DNA from: Bryobacteraceae bacterium
Lineage (GTDB): Bacteria > Acidobacteriota > Terriglobia > Bryobacterales > Bryobacteraceae
NCBI GenBank assembly: GCA_023384675.1
Contig: JAHDVK010000028.1
Location: forward strand, 1-64,000
Reading direction: 5' to 3'
Length of the DNA stretch: 64,000 nucleotides
Position numbers and translations under genes: made by a program. A model generated the notes under the pieces. That model searched no databases, was not told the DNA's origin, and was given only the letters and a program-made list of their open reading frames with translations. The number at the start of each line of letters is the position of its first letter. Within the stretch, counting starts at the first letter, position 1. Positions 6,517 to 15,133 of the stretch are shown here, piece after piece.

Positions 6517-6541
6517 ATCTCTCCATGCTACACTTTGGGGC

Positions 6542-6946
6542 ATGAGAGCTTACTGCTGGGCATGCATTTTAGCCTCGACTCTGCTGTTCGGTATCGCCTG
6601 CGGCCAGGCGCCGAAGGCGGCCACCACCAAGACGCTTGCTCCCGAAGAACTCGCGGCGCTGCTGGAACAGCCGGATAAGGTCTTCTTTCTCGACGTGCGG
6701 ACAAAGGCAGAGATTGAGAGGCTGGGTTCGGTGAAAGGCTATACGCACATTCCAGTCAACGAATTGGCGGGGCGGCTAAACGAAGTCCCGAAAGACAAGC
6801 TGATCGTCACCCTTTGAAGCCAGGGCGGACGGGCTGCCCGTGCGGCGGCCTTACTGGCGGAAAAGGGCTTCCAAACCGTGGGATCGTGCGGGCTGGAAGA
6901 CATTAAGAAGAAAGGCCGCGATTTCACGCAAAGGTCTGGCGGTTAG
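6542..6946 (+). CDS. Exported single-domain rhodanese with in-frame TGA at the catalytic Cys (candidate selenoprotein)
   Basis: Up to the TGA at 6815-6817 the frame encodes 91 residues: a signal peptide (residues 1-20, possible lipid-attachment Cys20) and the first part of a rhodanese fold with FLDVRTKAEIE and HIPVNELAGRL. Beyond the TGA the same frame continues to a TAG at 6944-6946 with the expected second part: SQGGRAARAAALLAEKGF, then QTVGSCGLEDIKKKG. The rhodanese active-site loop is C-x-x-G-x-R, and the TGA falls exactly on the C. Read as selenocysteine (residue 92), the protein has 134 residues and a complete fold. A hairpin follows the TGA at once. Alternatives are a nonsense mutation or a sequencing error. 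Rhodanese-type selenoproteins have been predicted in bacteria, but no sel gene lies in this window. Confidence 0.72.
6818..6858 (+). promoter_or_regulatory. SECIS-like hairpin after the TGA codon
   Basis: Directly after the TGA a stem-loop can be drawn. A lower stem pairs GCCAG (6819-6823) with CTGGC (6854-6858) and GGC (6824-6826) with GCC (6848-6850). An upper stem pairs ACGGG (6829-6833) with CCCGT (6837-6841) around a CTG loop. Bacterial SECIS elements sit just 3' of the UGA, with the apical loop about 16-37 nt downstream and a G near the loop start. Here the loop begins 16 nt after the TGA. GC-rich coding DNA forms hairpins easily, so this supports the idea but does not prove it. Confidence 0.45.
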
Positions 6947-7636: not shown

Positions 7637-7940
7637 TGCCTTCCGGGCGGCGAATCGGCCCGGCTGCCGAATTGCCAAAAGATAGTATCGGAAAGAAATA
7701 TATAGCTGACGAAGGTATCTTTTGATATTCGGCCATTTCCTCGAATAGCTTCTCTCTTGCTGATTATTCATGGTAGTCTGGCCTTAGTTGCTTCAGTTCA
7801 ATATGGGAGATGTATTTGAGGGTTAGTTGAAGCCTGGGCCATTCCGTGGTCTTGAGGTTTCCCTCACTTATTCCCGCTGTCGCAGCCATTTCCCGCAGAG
7901 ATCGGTTCATCGATCTTTGGATGGAGAAGACGAGAGCAAA
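7637..7940 (+). promoter_or_regulatory. AT-rich leader of the first TonB-dependent receptor gene
   Basis: This 304-bp stretch is clearly more AT-rich than its surroundings and contains no supported gene. It holds a perfect 9-bp inverted repeat, CAAAAGATA (7676-7684) and TATCTTTTG (7716-7724), separated by 31 bp. The motif AAAGATAG-N5-GAAA (7678-7694) recurs upstream of the third receptor gene. Promoter and operator functions are inferred; no -10/-35 pair was assigned. The ribosome-binding site before 7941 is weak. Confidence 0.45.
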
Positions 7941-10900
7941 ATGAACACTCACATTCTGAAATCCTTGAAGGAATTAACATGGGTGCTGACGTTCGCGTTG
8001 CTGGCCGTTGTGGCCATGCAGCCGGCGCAGGCCCAGGTCTTGTACGGATCCGTCGTCGGCACCGTGGAGGACCCTTCGGGGTCCATGGTGCCTGGCGCCA
8101 ACATCACGCTCGTGAACAATGCCACGGGCGTCTCTCGCGAAACCCAGGCCGATGCTCAGGGCCGTTTCAACATCGTCAGCGTGCCCGCGGCCGCCTATTC
8201 GCTGACCGTGACGGCTCCGGGCTTCCGCGCCCTGACGCGCACTGGCGTCGAAGTCACCATCAACAACGTTACCCGTGTCACCACCCGGCTGGAAGTCGGC
8301 CAGGTGAGCGAGCAGGTGACCGTGTCGGCCTCGGCCGCCGCCCTGCAGACCGACCGTTCCGACACCCGCGCGGAGATCCAGAACCGTACAGTCGTGGAAC
8401 TCCCGCTGCCCGCCTACCGCAACTTCCAGAGCATGATCAACCTTGTGCCCGGCGCCACGCCAGCCACATTCCAGAACGCAGTGGTGGATTCGCCGGCGCG
8501 CTCGCTGCGCACCCAGATTAACGGTACAAACCCGAACAACAACAACACCCGTGTGGATGGCGCTACGAACGTCTTCCTCTGGCTGCCACACCACACGCTG
8601 TACAACCCGCCCGTGGAATCGATCGAGACGGTCAACATTTCGACCTCCTCGTTCGACGCCGAACAGGGCATGGCCGGCGGCGCCGCCGTCACGGTGGCCA
8701 CCAAGTCGGGCACCAACGATATTAGAGGTTCCGCCTTCTGGTACCACGACCGCGATAGCATGTACGCCCGTCCTTACTTCTACCGCCTGTACGCGGGTGA
8801 GGCCAACCCGGCGCTGCCGCAATCGCGCATCAACATCCCCGGCGGCACCATCGGCGGTCCGATCGTGAAGAACAAGCTGTTCTACTTCTTCAGCTACGAA
8901 CGCACGATGGAGCGCACAGGCCAGTTCGGTAACTTCACCGTGCCCAACCCCGATATGCGCCAGGGCAACTTCGCCGCGTACTCGGCGCTGGGCCAGATCT
9001 ATGATCCGCTGTCGGGCGGACCGAATGGCGAGAACCGGGTTCCGTTTGCCAACAACCAGGTCCCGTCTTCGCGGTTCTTCCCCGGATGGCTGCGGATGCA
9101 GGAATTGGCCCCGCTGCCGAACCAGCAAGGGACTGATGCCTTCAACCTCGCGAACAACTTTGCCGCGGAGGGCACGCAGTCGCTGACGCGCGACCAGTAC
9201 GACTTCAAGACCAACTACAACGTGAACCAGAACCTGATGATCTGGGGCAAGTACAGCTACATGAACGCGCCCGTCACCGGCATCGGCGCTCTCGGCGAGC
9301 TCACCGGCCCGGGCCTCGGTACGCTGGGCACGGGCGACACGAAGGTGTATATCCCGTCGGTGGGCTTTAACCTGACGCTCTCGCCGACGTTCCTGATCGA
9401 CGGCGTGTTCGGCTACTCGCGGTTCGACCAGACCGTGCAGGGTCCGGACTTCGGCCGCAACTGGGGCACGGAAGTCTGGGGCATCCCCGGCACCAACGGC
9501 GGCGCCGGCCAGTTCGCCAGCGACGACCGCTACTCCGGCCAGCCCTGCATCAACAACGGCCTCACCGCCTGGGGCAACTGCAACGGCTGGATGCCCTTGT
9601 TCCGCAACGACCGCAGCTACACCTACACGATGAACTTCTCGAAGGTGAAGGGCGCGCACGAAATGCGTTGGGGCGTGGACATCGTCCGGCACGCCATGAA
9701 CCACTGGCAGCCGGAAGTCAGCGGCGGTCCCCGCGGCAACCTGAGCCCCGGCTCGAACGGCATGGTGCTGCAGGGCCAGGTGGCGCGCAACATCCACACT
9801 TACGCCGCCGGTCTCCACGGCATTCTCGGCAGCGCCACGAAGGCTGTGCAGCTTTTCGAGATGCAGACCCGCGAGTGGCAGCAGGGCTTCTACTTCCGCG
9901 ACCGCTGGCAGGTGACCCGCAACTTCACGCTGAATCTGGGCGCGCGCTATGAGTTCTACCCGCTGATCAACCGCGGCGACCGCGGCATCGAGCGATGGGA
10001 CCCGCAGACCAACATCGTCACCCTCGGCGGTATTGGCAACGTGCCGTTCAACAACGACATCACGGTGTCGAAGAAACTGCTCGCTCCGCGCGTCGGTTTC
10101 GCCTGGCGTTTGAACGACAAGACCGTCATCCGCTCGGGCTACGGGATCACCTTCAACCCGCTGCCTGTCTCGCGCCCGCTGCGCGGCCTGTATCCGTCCA
10201 CCATCGGCGCAACCTATGAGGCTCCCACGCAGTTCGGCTACTTCGGCACGTTCGCGCAGGGCCTGCCCGAAGTGCCGGTGCCGGATACCAGCACGGGTCG
10301 CATCAACCTGCCGCGCACCGTGGACATGGGTCCCCGCAGCCCCTGGGCGGGACAGTTGAACCGTGGCTACATCCAGAGCTGGAACTTCACGGTGGAGCGT
10401 CAACTCCCCGCCGACTTCCTGCTCTCGGTCGGCTACGTCGGCAACCAGACGGTCCGGCAGTTTGCCGACCGCGACATCAATGCCGCGCCCGTGGGCACTG
10501 GCCCTCAGGGCCGGCCGCTGGCCGCCACCCAGGGCCGCATCATCGGCGCCCTCATGTGGGACGGCTGGGCGAATGCGAACTACCACGCGTTGCAGGTCGC
10601 CCTCAACAAGAACCTCTCGCGCGGCCTGTTCATGAAGGGCGCATACACCTGGTCCAAGGCCATCAATATGACCGACGAAGACGGTTGGGCCGGCATGCCC
10701 ATTACCAACCTCGATGCGGCGCTCCACCGCAACCGCGGCGTGGCGGGTTACGACCGCACCCAGATGTTCGTCATGAGCTGGGTGTACGAACTGCCGTGGG
10801 GCAAGGGCCAGCCGATTCCGCTGCGCGGCTTCGCCGACACTCTGCTCGGCGGCTGGCGCATCAATGGCATCTACTCGGCCTACACGGGCCTGCCGTTTAC

Positions 10901-11348
10901 GGTGTCCGCTGGCGGCGCTTCGCTCAATGCGCCCGGTTCCAACAACCAGGCCGATCAGGTCGCCGACTTCCAGAAGCTGGGCGATAAGGGCCTCGGCACC
11001 CGGTACTACTCGCCGGGCGCTTTCCGCGACCCGAACGTCCTGCGCCCCGCCGGCGTTTTCCGCTTCGGTACCACCGGCCGCAACTCGATGCGCGGTCCGG
11101 GCTTCCAGAAGGCCGACCTCGCCATGTTCAAGGACTTCCGCATCACTGAGCGTTTCGTGGCTCAATTCAAGGCGGAAGCCTTCAACTTCACCAATACGCC
11201 GATTTTCAGCAACCCGAACGGCAACGTGAGCCAGATGGCTTGGGACGCGGCAGGGAATATCACCAACCCGGTGAATTTCATGTCGATCCTGGATACGGCC
11301 GCGGCCTCCGAGCGCCGCTTCCGCCTCGGCGTGCGCGTATCGTTCTAA
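7941..11348 (+). CDS. TonB-dependent receptor, Oar-like, with carboxypeptidase-regulatory-like domain (tandem copy 1)
   Basis: The product is an outer-membrane TonB-coupled transporter of 1135 residues. A signal peptide ends near AQAQ (about residue 33). A carboxypeptidase-regulatory-like beta-sandwich follows (about 34-125, with GTVEDPSGSMVPGANITL). Next come a plug domain (about 130-250) and a long beta-barrel that ends in the outer-membrane signature GVRVSF with C-terminal Phe. No substrate can be read. I placed the start at 7941, immediately before the signal peptide, because the longer frame adds 38 non-signal residues. The second copy begins 377 bp downstream; positions 8727-9503 are identical to that copy at every base. 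Confidence 0.93.
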   Translation: MNTHILKSLKELTWVLTFALLAVVAMQPAQAQVLYGSVVGTVEDPSGSMVPGANITLVNNATGVSRETQADAQGRFNIVSVPAAAYSLTVTAPGFRALTRTGVEVTINNVTRVTTRLEVGQVSEQVTVSASAAALQTDRSDTRAEIQNRTVVELPLPAYRNFQSMINLVPGATPATFQNAVVDSPARSLRTQINGTNPNNNNTRVDGATNVFLWLPHHTLYNPPVESIETVNISTSSFDAEQGMAGGAAVTVATKSGTNDIRGSAFWYHDRDSMYARPYFYRLYAGEANPALPQSRINIPGGTIGGPIVKNKLFYFFSYERTMERTGQFGNFTVPNPDMRQGNFAAYSALGQIYDPLSGGPNGENRVPFANNQVPSSRFFPGWLRMQELAPLPNQQGTDAFNLANNFAAEGTQSLTRDQYDFKTNYNVNQNLMIWGKYSYMNAPVTGIGALGELTGPGLGTLGTGDTKVYIPSVGFNLTLSPTFLIDGVFGYSRFDQTVQGPDFGRNWGTEVWGIPGTNGGAGQFASDDRYSGQPCINNGLTAWGNCNGWMPLFRNDRSYTYTMNFSKVKGAHEMRWGVDIVRHAMNHWQPEVSGGPRGNLSPGSNGMVLQGQVARNIHTYAAGLHGILGSATKAVQLFEMQTREWQQGFYFRDRWQVTRNFTLNLGARYEFYPLINRGDRGIERWDPQTNIVTLGGIGNVPFNNDITVSKKLLAPRVGFAWRLNDKTVIRSGYGITFNPLPVSRPLRGLYPSTIGATYEAPTQFGYFGTFAQGLPEVPVPDTSTGRINLPRTVDMGPRSPWAGQLNRGYIQSWNFTVERQLPADFLLSVGYVGNQTVRQFADRDINAAPVGTGPQGRPLAATQGRIIGALMWDGWANANYHALQVALNKNLSRGLFMKGAYTWSKAINMTDEDGWAGMPITNLDAALHRNRGVAGYDRTQMFVMSWVYELPWGKGQPIPLRGFADTLLGGWRINGIYSAYTGLPFTVSAGGASLNAPGSNNQADQVADFQKLGDKGLGTRYYSPGAFRDPNVLRPAGVFRFGTTGRNSMRGPGFQKADLAMFKDFRITERFVAQFKAEAFNFTNTPIFSNPNGNVSQMAWDAAGNITNPVNFMSILDTAAASERRFRLGVRVSF
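8295..8387 (+). repeat. 93-bp tract identical between receptor copies 1 and 2
   Basis: This segment matches 12086-12178 in the second copy without a difference, including all third codon positions, while flanking codons differ synonymously. It covers the start of the plug domain. It could be a short conversion tract or chance conservation. Confidence 0.7.
8727..9503 (+). repeat. 777-bp tract identical to 12518-13294 in the second receptor gene
   Basis: Line-by-line comparison at a constant offset of 3791 bp shows no mismatch over 777 bp. Just outside, codons differ freely: GATATTAGA against GACGTGCGT on the left, and GCCGGC against CGCGGG on the right. The tract encodes the end of the plug region and the first barrel strands. 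Sharp borders to synonymous divergence are the mark of recent gene conversion. Confidence 0.95.
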
Positions 11349-11725: not shown

Positions 11726-14700
11726 ATGCTCATGAAAACCAAATCCAATCAATCTTTTACGGGGATCGCCTGGGTTCTGGCGTTGGTGCTGCTGGCCCTT
11801 ATGGTTCAGCAGCCGGCGCAGGCCCAGGTCTTGTACGGATCAGTCGTCGGCACGGTCGAGGACCCTTCGGGGTCCGTGGTGCCTGGCGCCAACATCACCC
11901 TGACTAGCAGCGCAACTGGCGTATCACGAGAAACGCAGGCTGATGACCAGGGCCGTTTCAATATCGTCAGTGTGCCTGCGGGCACGTATTCGCTGGCCGT
12001 GACGGCTCCGGGCTTCCGCGCCCTGACCCGCACTGGCCTCGAAATTACCATCAACAACGTCACGCGCGTCACCACCCGTCTTGAGGTCGGCCAGGTGAGC
12101 GAGCAGGTGACCGTGTCGGCCTCGGCCGCCGCCCTGCAGACCGACCGTTCCGACACCCGCGCGGAGATTCAGAGCCGCACGGTCGTGGAACTGCCGCTGC
12201 CTGCCTACCGCAACTTCCAGAGCATGATCAACCTGGTGCCCGGCGCCACCCCGGCGGGCTTCCAGAACGCCGTCGTGGACTCGCCCGCGCGGTCGCTGAC
12301 CACCAACATCAACGGCACCAACCGCAACAACAACAACACCCGCGTCGATGGCGCGATCAACGTGTTTATTTGGCTGCCGCACCACACGCTGCTCAACCCG
12401 CCGGTGGAATCGATCGAGACCGTGAACATTTCCACCTCCTCGTTCGACGCCGAACAGGGCATGGCCGGCGGCGCCGCCGTCACGGTCGCCACCAAGTCGG
12501 GCACCAACGACGTGCGTGGTTCCGCCTTCTGGTACCACGACCGCGATAGCATGTACGCCCGTCCTTACTTCTACCGCCTGTACGCGGGTGAGGCCAACCC
12601 GGCGCTGCCGCAATCGCGCATCAACATCCCCGGCGGCACCATCGGCGGTCCGATCGTGAAGAACAAGCTGTTCTACTTCTTCAGCTACGAACGCACGATG
12701 GAGCGCACAGGCCAGTTCGGTAACTTCACCGTGCCCAACCCCGATATGCGCCAGGGCAACTTCGCCGCGTACTCGGCGCTGGGCCAGATCTATGATCCGC
12801 TGTCGGGCGGACCGAATGGCGAGAACCGGGTTCCGTTTGCCAACAACCAGGTCCCGTCTTCGCGGTTCTTCCCCGGATGGCTGCGGATGCAGGAATTGGC
12901 CCCGCTGCCGAACCAGCAAGGGACTGATGCCTTCAACCTCGCGAACAACTTTGCCGCGGAGGGCACGCAGTCGCTGACGCGCGACCAGTACGACTTCAAG
13001 ACCAACTACAACGTGAACCAGAACCTGATGATCTGGGGCAAGTACAGCTACATGAACGCGCCCGTCACCGGCATCGGCGCTCTCGGCGAGCTCACCGGCC
13101 CGGGCCTCGGTACGCTGGGCACGGGCGACACGAAGGTGTATATCCCGTCGGTGGGCTTTAACCTGACGCTCTCGCCGACGTTCCTGATCGACGGCGTGTT
13201 CGGCTACTCGCGGTTCGACCAGACCGTGCAGGGTCCGGACTTCGGCCGCAACTGGGGCACGGAAGTCTGGGGCATCCCCGGCACCAACGGCGGCCGCGGG
13301 CAGTTCGCCAGCGACGACCGCTACTCCGGCCAGCCCTGCATCGGCAACGGCCTCACCGCCTGGGGCAACTGCTCCGGCTGGATGCCCTTGTTCCGCAACG
13401 ACCGCAGCTACACCTACACCATGAACTTCTCGAAGGTGAAGGGCGCGCACGAGTTGCGCTGGGGCGTCGACACCGTCCGCCACGCCATGAACCACTGGCA
13501 GCCTGAAGTCAGCGGCGGCCCGCGCGGCAACCTCTCGCCCGGCTCGAACGGCATGGTGTCGCAGGGCCAGGTCTCCCGCGCGACTCACACCTATGCCGCC
13601 GGCCTCCACGGCATCCTGGGCAGCGCCACCAAAGCCGTCCAACTCTTCGAAATGCAGACCCGCGAGTGGCAGCACGGCTTCTACTTCCGTGACCGCTGGC
13701 AGGTGACGCGCAACTTCACCCTCAACCTCGGCGCCCGCTACGAGTTCTATCCGCTGATCAACCGCGGCGACCGCGGCATCGAGCGCTGGGACCCCGCCAC
13801 CAACATCGTGACGATGGGCGGCGTCGGCAACGTGCCGTTCAACAACGACATCACGGTGTCGAAGAAACTGCTCGCCCCGCGCGTCGGCTTCGCCTGGCGC
13901 CTGGATGACAAGACCGTCGTCCGCTCGGGCTATGGCATCACCTTTAACCCGCTCCCGGTGTCGCGCCCGTTGCGCGGCCTGTATCCGTCCACCATCGGCG
14001 CGAGCTACGTGGCGCCGACGCAGTTTGGCTACTTCGGCACGTTCGCGCAGGGCCTGCCCGAAGTTCCGGTGCCGGATACCAGCACGGGCCGCATCGAACT
14101 GCCGCGCACCGTGGACATGGGCCCACGCAGCCCCTGGGCCGGCCAGCTGAACCGTGGCTACATCCAGAGCTGGAACTTCACCGTGGAGCGTCAACTCCCG
14201 GCGGAATTCCTGCTGTCAGTCGGCTACGTCGGCAACCAGACCGTCCGGCAGTTTGCTGACCGCGACATCAACGCCGCCCCGGTGGGCACTGGTCCGCAGG
14301 GCCGCCCCTTCAACGCCACGCAGGGCCGCATCATCGGCGCCAACATGTGGGACGGCTGGGCGAACGCCAACTACCACTCGATGCAGCTTTCCTTGAACAA
14401 GAACTTTAGCCGAGGCTTGTTCATGAAGGGCGCCTACACCTGGTCGAAGGCCATCAATATGACCGACGACGACGGCTGGGCGGGCATGCCGATCTCGAAC
14501 CTCGACTCCGCGCTGCACCGCAACCGCGCCGTCGCCAGCTATGACCGCACCCAGATGTTCATCATGAGCTGGGTGTACGAGTTGCCCTGGGGCGCGGGCC
14601 GGCCGATTCCGCTCCGCGGCTTCGCCGACACCCTGCTCGGCGGCTGGCGCCTGAACGGTATCTACTCGGCCTACAGCGGCCTGCCGTTCACGGTCACCGC

Positions 14701-15133
14701 GGGCGGCGCTTCGCTGAACGCCCCCGGTTCCAACAACCAGGCCGATCAAGTCGCCGACTTCCAGAAGCTCGGCGAAGTCGGACTCGGCACCCGCTTCTAC
14801 TCGCCCGGCGCCTTCCGCGACCCGAACGTCCTGCGCCCCGCCGGCGTGTTCCGTTTCGGCACCAGCGGCCGCAACTCCATGCGCGGTCCTGGCTTCCAGA
14901 AGGCCGACCTGGCGCTGTTCAAGGACTTCCGCATCACCGAGCGCTTCGTCGCTCAGTTCAAGGCCGAAGCCTTCAACTTCACCAACACCCCCCGCTTCGG
15001 CCAGCCGAGCGGCAACGTGAGCCAGATGGCTTGGGACGCCGCCGGCAACATCACCAACCCGGTGAACTTCATGTCGGTCCTGAGCGCGGCGGACGAGCGG
15101 CGCTTCCGCATCGGCGTCCGCGTGTCGTTCTAA
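11726..15133 (+). CDS. TonB-dependent receptor, Oar-like (tandem copy 2)
   Basis: This is a close paralogue of the preceding gene with the same architecture and the same length of 1135 residues: signal peptide to about residue 33, carboxypeptidase-regulatory-like domain, plug, and barrel ending in GVRVSF. Differences are scattered over the N-terminal domain and the C-terminal half, while 12518-13294 is base-for-base identical to copy 1. The start could be the ATG at 11726 or the one at 11732 (MKTKSNQS); spacing from TGGAG favours neither strongly. Outer-membrane location and TonB coupling are family knowledge; the ligand is unknown. Confidence 0.93.
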   Translation: MLMKTKSNQSFTGIAWVLALVLLALMVQQPAQAQVLYGSVVGTVEDPSGSVVPGANITLTSSATGVSRETQADDQGRFNIVSVPAGTYSLAVTAPGFRALTRTGLEITINNVTRVTTRLEVGQVSEQVTVSASAAALQTDRSDTRAEIQSRTVVELPLPAYRNFQSMINLVPGATPAGFQNAVVDSPARSLTTNINGTNRNNNNTRVDGAINVFIWLPHHTLLNPPVESIETVNISTSSFDAEQGMAGGAAVTVATKSGTNDVRGSAFWYHDRDSMYARPYFYRLYAGEANPALPQSRINIPGGTIGGPIVKNKLFYFFSYERTMERTGQFGNFTVPNPDMRQGNFAAYSALGQIYDPLSGGPNGENRVPFANNQVPSSRFFPGWLRMQELAPLPNQQGTDAFNLANNFAAEGTQSLTRDQYDFKTNYNVNQNLMIWGKYSYMNAPVTGIGALGELTGPGLGTLGTGDTKVYIPSVGFNLTLSPTFLIDGVFGYSRFDQTVQGPDFGRNWGTEVWGIPGTNGGRGQFASDDRYSGQPCIGNGLTAWGNCSGWMPLFRNDRSYTYTMNFSKVKGAHELRWGVDTVRHAMNHWQPEVSGGPRGNLSPGSNGMVSQGQVSRATHTYAAGLHGILGSATKAVQLFEMQTREWQHGFYFRDRWQVTRNFTLNLGARYEFYPLINRGDRGIERWDPATNIVTMGGVGNVPFNNDITVSKKLLAPRVGFAWRLDDKTVVRSGYGITFNPLPVSRPLRGLYPSTIGASYVAPTQFGYFGTFAQGLPEVPVPDTSTGRIELPRTVDMGPRSPWAGQLNRGYIQSWNFTVERQLPAEFLLSVGYVGNQTVRQFADRDINAAPVGTGPQGRPFNATQGRIIGANMWDGWANANYHSMQLSLNKNFSRGLFMKGAYTWSKAINMTDDDGWAGMPISNLDSALHRNRAVASYDRTQMFIMSWVYELPWGAGRPIPLRGFADTLLGGWRLNGIYSAYSGLPFTVTAGGASLNAPGSNNQADQVADFQKLGEVGLGTRFYSPGAFRDPNVLRPAGVFRFGTSGRNSMRGPGFQKADLALFKDFRITERFVAQFKAEAFNFTNTPRFGQPSGNVSQMAWDAAGNITNPVNFMSVLSAADERRFRIGVRVSF
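12518..13294 (+). repeat. 777-bp tract identical to 8727-9503 in the first receptor gene
   Basis: This is the partner of the identical tract in copy 1. It encodes the same amino acids with the same codons throughout, and the neighbouring codons on both sides differ. Confidence 0.95.

Follow-up and report, generated by a model that had tools for sequence, protein, structure and literature searches.

A gene at positions 6542-6946 of the window, the 64,000-nucleotide stretch of Bryobacteraceae DNA analysed here, in all likelihood codes for a genuine selenoprotein, a small exported rhodanese, either periplasmic or lipid-anchored, in which selenocysteine (Sec) would replace the nucleophilic Cys of the active loop. 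This reading is supported by a UGA at the catalytic column, a full decoding machinery, a covarying hairpin, coding that is conserved past the UGA in dozens of genomes and a signal-like N-terminus. Judged from its sequence and those of its relatives, the gene is very probably real and unbroken, and the same layout is kept in many related genomes. The features discussed below are as follows:

6529-6534, + strand: TACACT, a -10-like box starting 13 nt upstream of the ATG (TANNNT count in homologous genes)
6542-6946, + strand: selenoprotein gene as read here, for a putatively exported single-domain rhodanese of 134 residues with Sec at 92 (frame reading, PF00581, homologue comparison)
6542-6601, + strand: signal-peptide-like N-terminus, residues 1-20, with a lipobox-like GIAC at its end (hydropathy and pattern only)
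6641-6880, + strand: rhodanese domain PF00581 (profile search, predicted model, fold matches)
6815-6817, + strand: TGA read as Sec92 at the catalytic position, in the active loop U-S-Q-G-G-R (translation, alignment of homologues)
6831-6851, + strand: bSECIS-like hairpin of 8 bp with a 5-nt loop, CGUGC, at 6839-6843; loop 21 nt past the UGA, -13.9 kcal/mol (folding, covariation)
6887-6889, + strand: codon of Cys116 (GSCGL), a conserved second Cys and proposed resolving partner of Sec92 (alignment, model)

Reading frame, fold and homologues

The frame opens at the ATG at 6542 with MRAYCWACILASTLLFGIACGQ... and reaches KLIVTL before the TGA at 6815-6817. Past this codon it resumes as SQGGRAARAAALLAEKGF (also given as SQGGRAARAAALLAEKGFQTVGSCGLEDIKKKGRDFTQRSGG) and ends at the TAG at 6944-6946, with no other in-frame stop within 6542-6946. 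Translation thus returns the frame set out in the preliminary description of this DNA, from the ATG at 6542 through the TGA after IVTL to the resumption and the TAG at 6944.

When the TGA is read as a residue, PF00581 matches residues 34-113 of the window protein at 46 bits (cut-off 22.2), with the motif UxxG present inside the domain as U-S-Q-G. A rhodanese search of the organism's own genome gave a domain at 6641-6880 that runs across the TGA (one TGA inside); among the nine rhodanese places in that genome, two contain a TGA, namely the window gene and the locus L007. The predicted model of the protein has a mean pLDDT of 80.1, with 59 of its 134 residues at or above 90, and places residue 92 at the end of a strand (87-92) and residue 116 within another (111-117). 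Rhodanese domains were the best matches in a fold search with this model (best 50 of 73 PDB matches, E <= 0.001). The leading solved relatives in the profile and fold searches are the rhodanese domains of CoA-disulfide reductase, persulfide dioxygenase and persulfide reductase proteins, and Sud (1qxn) and PspE (2jtq) come lower down the profile list.

Some match to the window protein was found in 194 of 201 genomes, its own included. Thirty places among these genomes were given loci, and 24 of them contain one TGA and six none; L029, counted without a TGA, is interrupted by a stretch of N, and the TGA appears in the second of its pieces. When GTDB species genomes were scanned, 390 related stretches came up; the best 80 were used, and 76 of these have acidobacterial titles. 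A profile search on 111 loci then gave 114 domains and 85 distinct sites (L007 had no match among those listed). The Sec column at these 85 sites holds TGA in 64, Cys in 18 (17 TGC and one TGT) and Ser in three. Judged by this alignment, TGA at the catalytic column is far beyond chance. The placing of the TGA at the catalytic Cys of a rhodanese, as originally claimed, is borne out by a domain that spans it and by the TGA, Cys and Ser codons of the homologues; shared with so many relatives, the TGA is no lone error.

A quick tree was built from 79 rows, of which 60 have Sec, 16 Cys and 3 Ser; on it, these states need 7 changes, against a shuffled mean of 17.8. Sec is spread across the tree, which is unrooted and has many unresolved forks. 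Three domains (L064, L100 and L119) lie outside this tree, as well as outside the 62-sequence hairpin alignment and the pN/pS, resampling, export and -10-box counts given below. The window sequence differs from its homologues at positions that are near-invariant among them. The Ser forms, L120, L127 and L138 (two of them named Granulicella), lack the second Cys and make up one starred group on a long branch.

Tandem copies occur at L090 (2351-3118), where two TGA copies share one reading frame, and at L038 (1477-2269), where a TGA copy stands beside a Cys copy. TGA rhodanese members were also found in records titled Arcobacter or Acidimicrobiia (L061, L092 and L124); the title of L061 is probably wrong, since the acidobacterial gene order is kept there and the aminotransferase is 82% identical. 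The Sec rhodanese is a small exported enzyme of soil and groundwater bacteria in which a stop codon appears to be read as the rare amino acid Sec, right at the catalytic position.

Decoding machinery, hairpin and constraint

The preliminary description had proposed looking for selA, selB, selD and tRNA-Sec, and would have taken absence of selA, selB or selC as refuting the Sec reading; all are found in the same genome (assembly of 5.73 Mb in 60 contigs, 97.4% complete). All four score above curated cut-offs: selC at 74.7 bits, with the anticodon tca given by ARAGORN, selB at 358 bits (cut-off 242.25), selA at 493 (cut-off 267.9) and selD at 350.9 (cut-off 125). The selD gene (L058, G000:C42:114913-115809) itself has one TGA inside, in frame within AAGUASKLG, and the RNA after it folds to a hairpin with the loop AGGUA. 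Across the 201 genomes, selB is above its cut-off in 172 and hardly separates TGA carriers from carriers of Cys or other forms. By a rough hand tally, about 5 of 57 TGA genomes are without a clear selB, as are 3 of 19 others; it covers genomes with a match of at least 60 bits to the protein, takes the best E-value per genome among the matches listed and has the TGA column checked solely for rows having a locus.

The bSECIS model, as given in section 5 of PMC13188914, has a loop of 3-9 nt with a G in its first two positions, a stem of 4-16 bp, a place 16-37 nt past the UGA and an MFE of -7.5 kcal/mol or lower. The hairpin at 6831-6851 lies within these limits on loop, stem, spacing and energy, and so sits where the published bacterial model places a SECIS, the region in which the preliminary description had suggested looking for one. 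Across the TGA genes, 36 of 64 fall within the limits at -7.5 kcal/mol and 59 of 64 at -6, as opposed to 3 of 21 non-TGA forms at either energy. Synonymous resampling of 62 genes, with a codon pool drawn mainly from TGA genes, gave 198 passes in 620 at -7.5 and 270 in 620 at -6 kcal/mol. In a minor group of the homologues the stem has a different register and the loop is GGA or GGC.

In an alignment of 62 sequences (58 distinct), the seven named pairs are formed in 79.6% of cells, compared with 69.3 when shuffled. Double-sided changes occur in 37 cells, against 14.1 +/- 2.7 in shuffles, none of which reached 37 in 500, and versions of the pairs slid by 1-3 columns have only 0-9 such cells. The closing pair is G-C in 29 sequences, C-G in 21 and G-U in three. 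Two of the five measures gave no excess: pairs with a change on both sides (3, shuffled 3.0) and further pair types (7, shuffled 7.3). RNAalifold returned zero consensus pairs on the 62-row alignment, the 54-nt RNA of the window is no better folded than its shuffles (z -0.05), and energy z-scores over six 54-nt stretches, from -2.42 to 0.99, are uninformative. Within the loop, Arg is encoded by CGT in 55 of the 64 TGA genes (63 have Arg there), whereas the invariant Arg that lies three codons upstream has CGT in two of 64. On these comparisons, the hairpin loop is constrained and the stem carries compensatory changes.

Constraint on the protein extends past the TGA as well. Over 66 near-orthologue pairs, pN/pS (as a ratio of means) is 0.29 for the 40 codons before the TGA and 0.33 for the 26 after it, values by which purifying selection is alike on both sides and which agree with the earlier statement that the downstream part shows no decay. 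Mean pS is lower after the TGA (0.44, compared with 0.59 before), as expected for an RNA element inside a coding sequence.

These results bear on the other ways in which the TGA might be read. Under the standard code the ORF opening at 6542 stops at 6817, and on the quick tree the end branch of the window protein is long (0.66). Both would suit a pseudogene or nonsense allele, with the TGA an ordinary stop and the sequence downstream of it decaying, but a lone nonsense mutation is contradicted by the TGA at the same column in 64 of the 85 distinct sites and by the constrained coding past it; we reject this explanation as extremely improbable. Had a Cys codon become TGA through a mistake in sequencing or assembly, a single base change from TGC, the codon at 17 of the 85 distinct sites, would be enough. 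For the homologues as a group the chance of this is vanishingly small, and it too is rejected: the TGA is common to many other assemblies, including those of near orthologues that keep the neighbouring aminotransferase gene, and the hairpin is mostly absent from non-TGA forms (3 of 21 pass at -6 kcal/mol). In bacteria, the decoding of Sec is in competition with termination, which would leave room for readthrough of the UGA by a route other than Sec or for a truncated product that is also made and used. This we consider highly improbable, given a column that has only Sec, Cys or Ser codons, a complete Sec machinery and a covarying hairpin; a product ending at residue 91 would, moreover, be without the catalytic residue.

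Probable export and possible chemistry of the Sec rhodanese

The window protein begins with a strongly hydrophobic N-terminus, as do the products of 56 of the 58 TGA genes whose start could be assigned, although the starts were chosen by hydropathy, which favours hydrophobic segments. A lipobox-like end was seen in 10 of the TGA genes examined (n = 58). The N-termini are support for export from the cytoplasm, not proof of it. The suggestion of an envelope selenoprotein made in the preliminary description stands insofar as the signal-like N-terminus recurs among the relatives by this pattern-based count; the view that such a protein is unusual has to be softened. Membrane fractions were reported to contain ExtKL, a cytochrome c of Geobacter for which Sec has been proposed (PMC5877670), so that a selenoprotein outside the cytoplasm would be no novelty.

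Upstream of the gene, a TANNNT box was found within -17 to -5 in 51 of 77 homologous genes, compared with a mean of 7.86 and a maximum of 17 in 200 shuffles; the count is restricted to homologous genes, 77 being judged of 82 sites. The box, often TATACT or TACACT, begins 12-13 nt before the ATG in 48 of the 77, and SD-like motifs occur in 20. This pattern suggests leaderless mRNAs for the window gene and many of its homologues.

A second Cys, at position 116, is found in 58 of 64 TGA sites, 12 of 18 Cys sites and none of the three Ser sites. The profile aligned five other rhodaneses of the same genome; two of them extend to this column, where each has GG. Because the second Cys is missing in six of the 64 TGA sites and present in 12 of the 18 Cys sites, it is, by this alignment, not tied to Sec; an independent-pairs test on the 79-row tree had too few pairs. 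In the rhodanese fold, the strands corresponding to 87-92 and 111-117 are neighbours, which, on what is generally known of the fold, makes a Sec92-Cys116 bond plausible in the predicted model.

We infer the chemistry to be that of either a Sec-Cys redox pair or a selenopersulfide sulfurtransferase. For the redox pair, to which we give somewhat less than an even chance, a Sec92-Cys116 selenylsulfide would turn the sulfurtransferase fold into an envelope thiol/selenol oxidoreductase, acting for example on persulfides, polysulfides or peroxides, that is widespread in Acidobacteriota. In the envelope, the Sec92 selenolate would attack an oxidant or a sulfane sulfur. Cys116, close to where the strand after the active-loop helix ends, would close the Sec-Cys selenylsulfide, and a thioredoxin-like envelope protein would re-reduce it. 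The product would be an envelope oxidoreductase or a handler of persulfide or polysulfide rather than a plain thiosulfate sulfurtransferase.

A strong rival, doubtful on balance but with a substantial probability, is a single-nucleophile envelope sulfurtransferase that, like Sud or PspE, would act as a sulfur carrier, here through a selenopersulfide on Sec92; the role of Cys116 would then be structural or accessory. The rhodanese fold with its active loop, the presence of Sud (1qxn) and PspE (2jtq) among the solved relatives and the six TGA sites without the second Cys all speak for it. Against it are the second Cys in the other 58 TGA sites, the GG of the two ordinary rhodaneses of this genome that can be aligned there and the mostly redox chemistry of known Sec enzymes.

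Known relatives, neighbourhood and significance

Earlier predictions of Sec rhodaneses in bacteria, to which the preliminary description had alluded, can be found in the passages of PMC13188914 and PMC9312934. The former, a catalogue of 2026, describes in those passages five rhodanese selenoprotein forms: UxxG marks forms 2 and 4, CxU form 3 (NF041203), and TsoB is form 5. Forms 2 and 4 (MBM9537886.1 and MCY3690685.1) have PF00581, Sec and UxxG, as in the window protein, a likeness drawn from the motif descriptions in the catalogue. The words "periplasm", "signal peptide", "secreted", "exported" and "lipoprotein" are absent from the main text of PMC13188914.

Eight NCBIfam models match the window protein at E <= 0.001, and none reaches its cut-off. 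NF041203 (rhodanese_LYCAU), a rhodanese-related (seleno)protein, likewise has Sec in its active loop, but the window protein scores only 30.6 bits to it (cut-off 115), and in place of its C-x-U has L-U, with the second Cys 24 residues later. L007, the second in-frame TGA rhodanese of the genome (1501-1788; G000:C40:50177-50464), appears to be a DedA-rhodanese fusion whose active loop reads C-T-U-P-N-E. It is nearer to NF041203 than the window protein is, at 86.9 bits, still below the cut-off. TsoB (NF045694), described in the catalogue as a rhodanese/DsbD fusion selenoprotein, shares Sec in a rhodanese-like protein, but its model spans 572 positions and has no match at E <= 0.001 to the window protein with its 134 residues.

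Among rhodaneses with Cys, PspE and Sud are small single-domain proteins and profile relatives of the window protein, Sud also being a fold match. Both are located in the envelope and use a Cys nucleophile, without Sec. The closest solved folds, also among the best profile matches, are the rhodanese domains of 3icr, 3nta, 8a56 and 5ve5 (CoA-disulfide/persulfide reductases and persulfide dioxygenase), which we take to lie inside larger proteins and to have Cys, whereas the window protein is not part of a larger one and has a signal-like N-terminus.

For acidobacteria, the passages of PMC1794560 give three selenoprotein families with four proteins as of 2006, and those of PMC12013277 include an acidobacterium with three known selenoprotein genes in a test set of 2025. 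No description of an exported acidobacterial Sec rhodanese was found in the literature searched, which comprised titles, starts of abstracts and passages outside subscription papers and preprints, including passages of PMC13188914, PMC9312934, PMC1088965, PMC2398784, PMC1794560, PMC5029168, PMC5877670 and PMC12013277. The safe verdict is that rhodanese selenoproteins, including those with UxxG, are already catalogued (PMC13188914) and that the acidobacterial protein, widespread and probably exported, is probably a new member of this kind.

Aminotransferase and GNAT genes are kept beside the rhodanese at 12 of 80 named loci, and the other 68 have no match to seven neighbour proteins of the window. 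Clustering of the flanking ORFs gave much overlapping-frame noise and no functionally assignable partner. Further along the window, two very similar tandem ORFs of 1173 and 1135 aa (7827-11348 and 11726-15133, + strand) resemble, on inspection by eye, large receptors of the outer membrane whose N-terminal domain is carboxypeptidase-regulatory-like.

Selenoprotein genes are easily truncated in annotation, where the UGA is taken for a stop. In the present case, codon, RNA-structure and phylogenetic evidence backs an exported Sec rhodanese in a major phylum of soil bacteria. Its Sec, Cys and Ser forms make up a natural series on one tree, in which the benefit of Sec to the enzyme could be tested, and the protein suggests that the acidobacterial cell envelope hosts sulfur or redox chemistry that depends on selenium.
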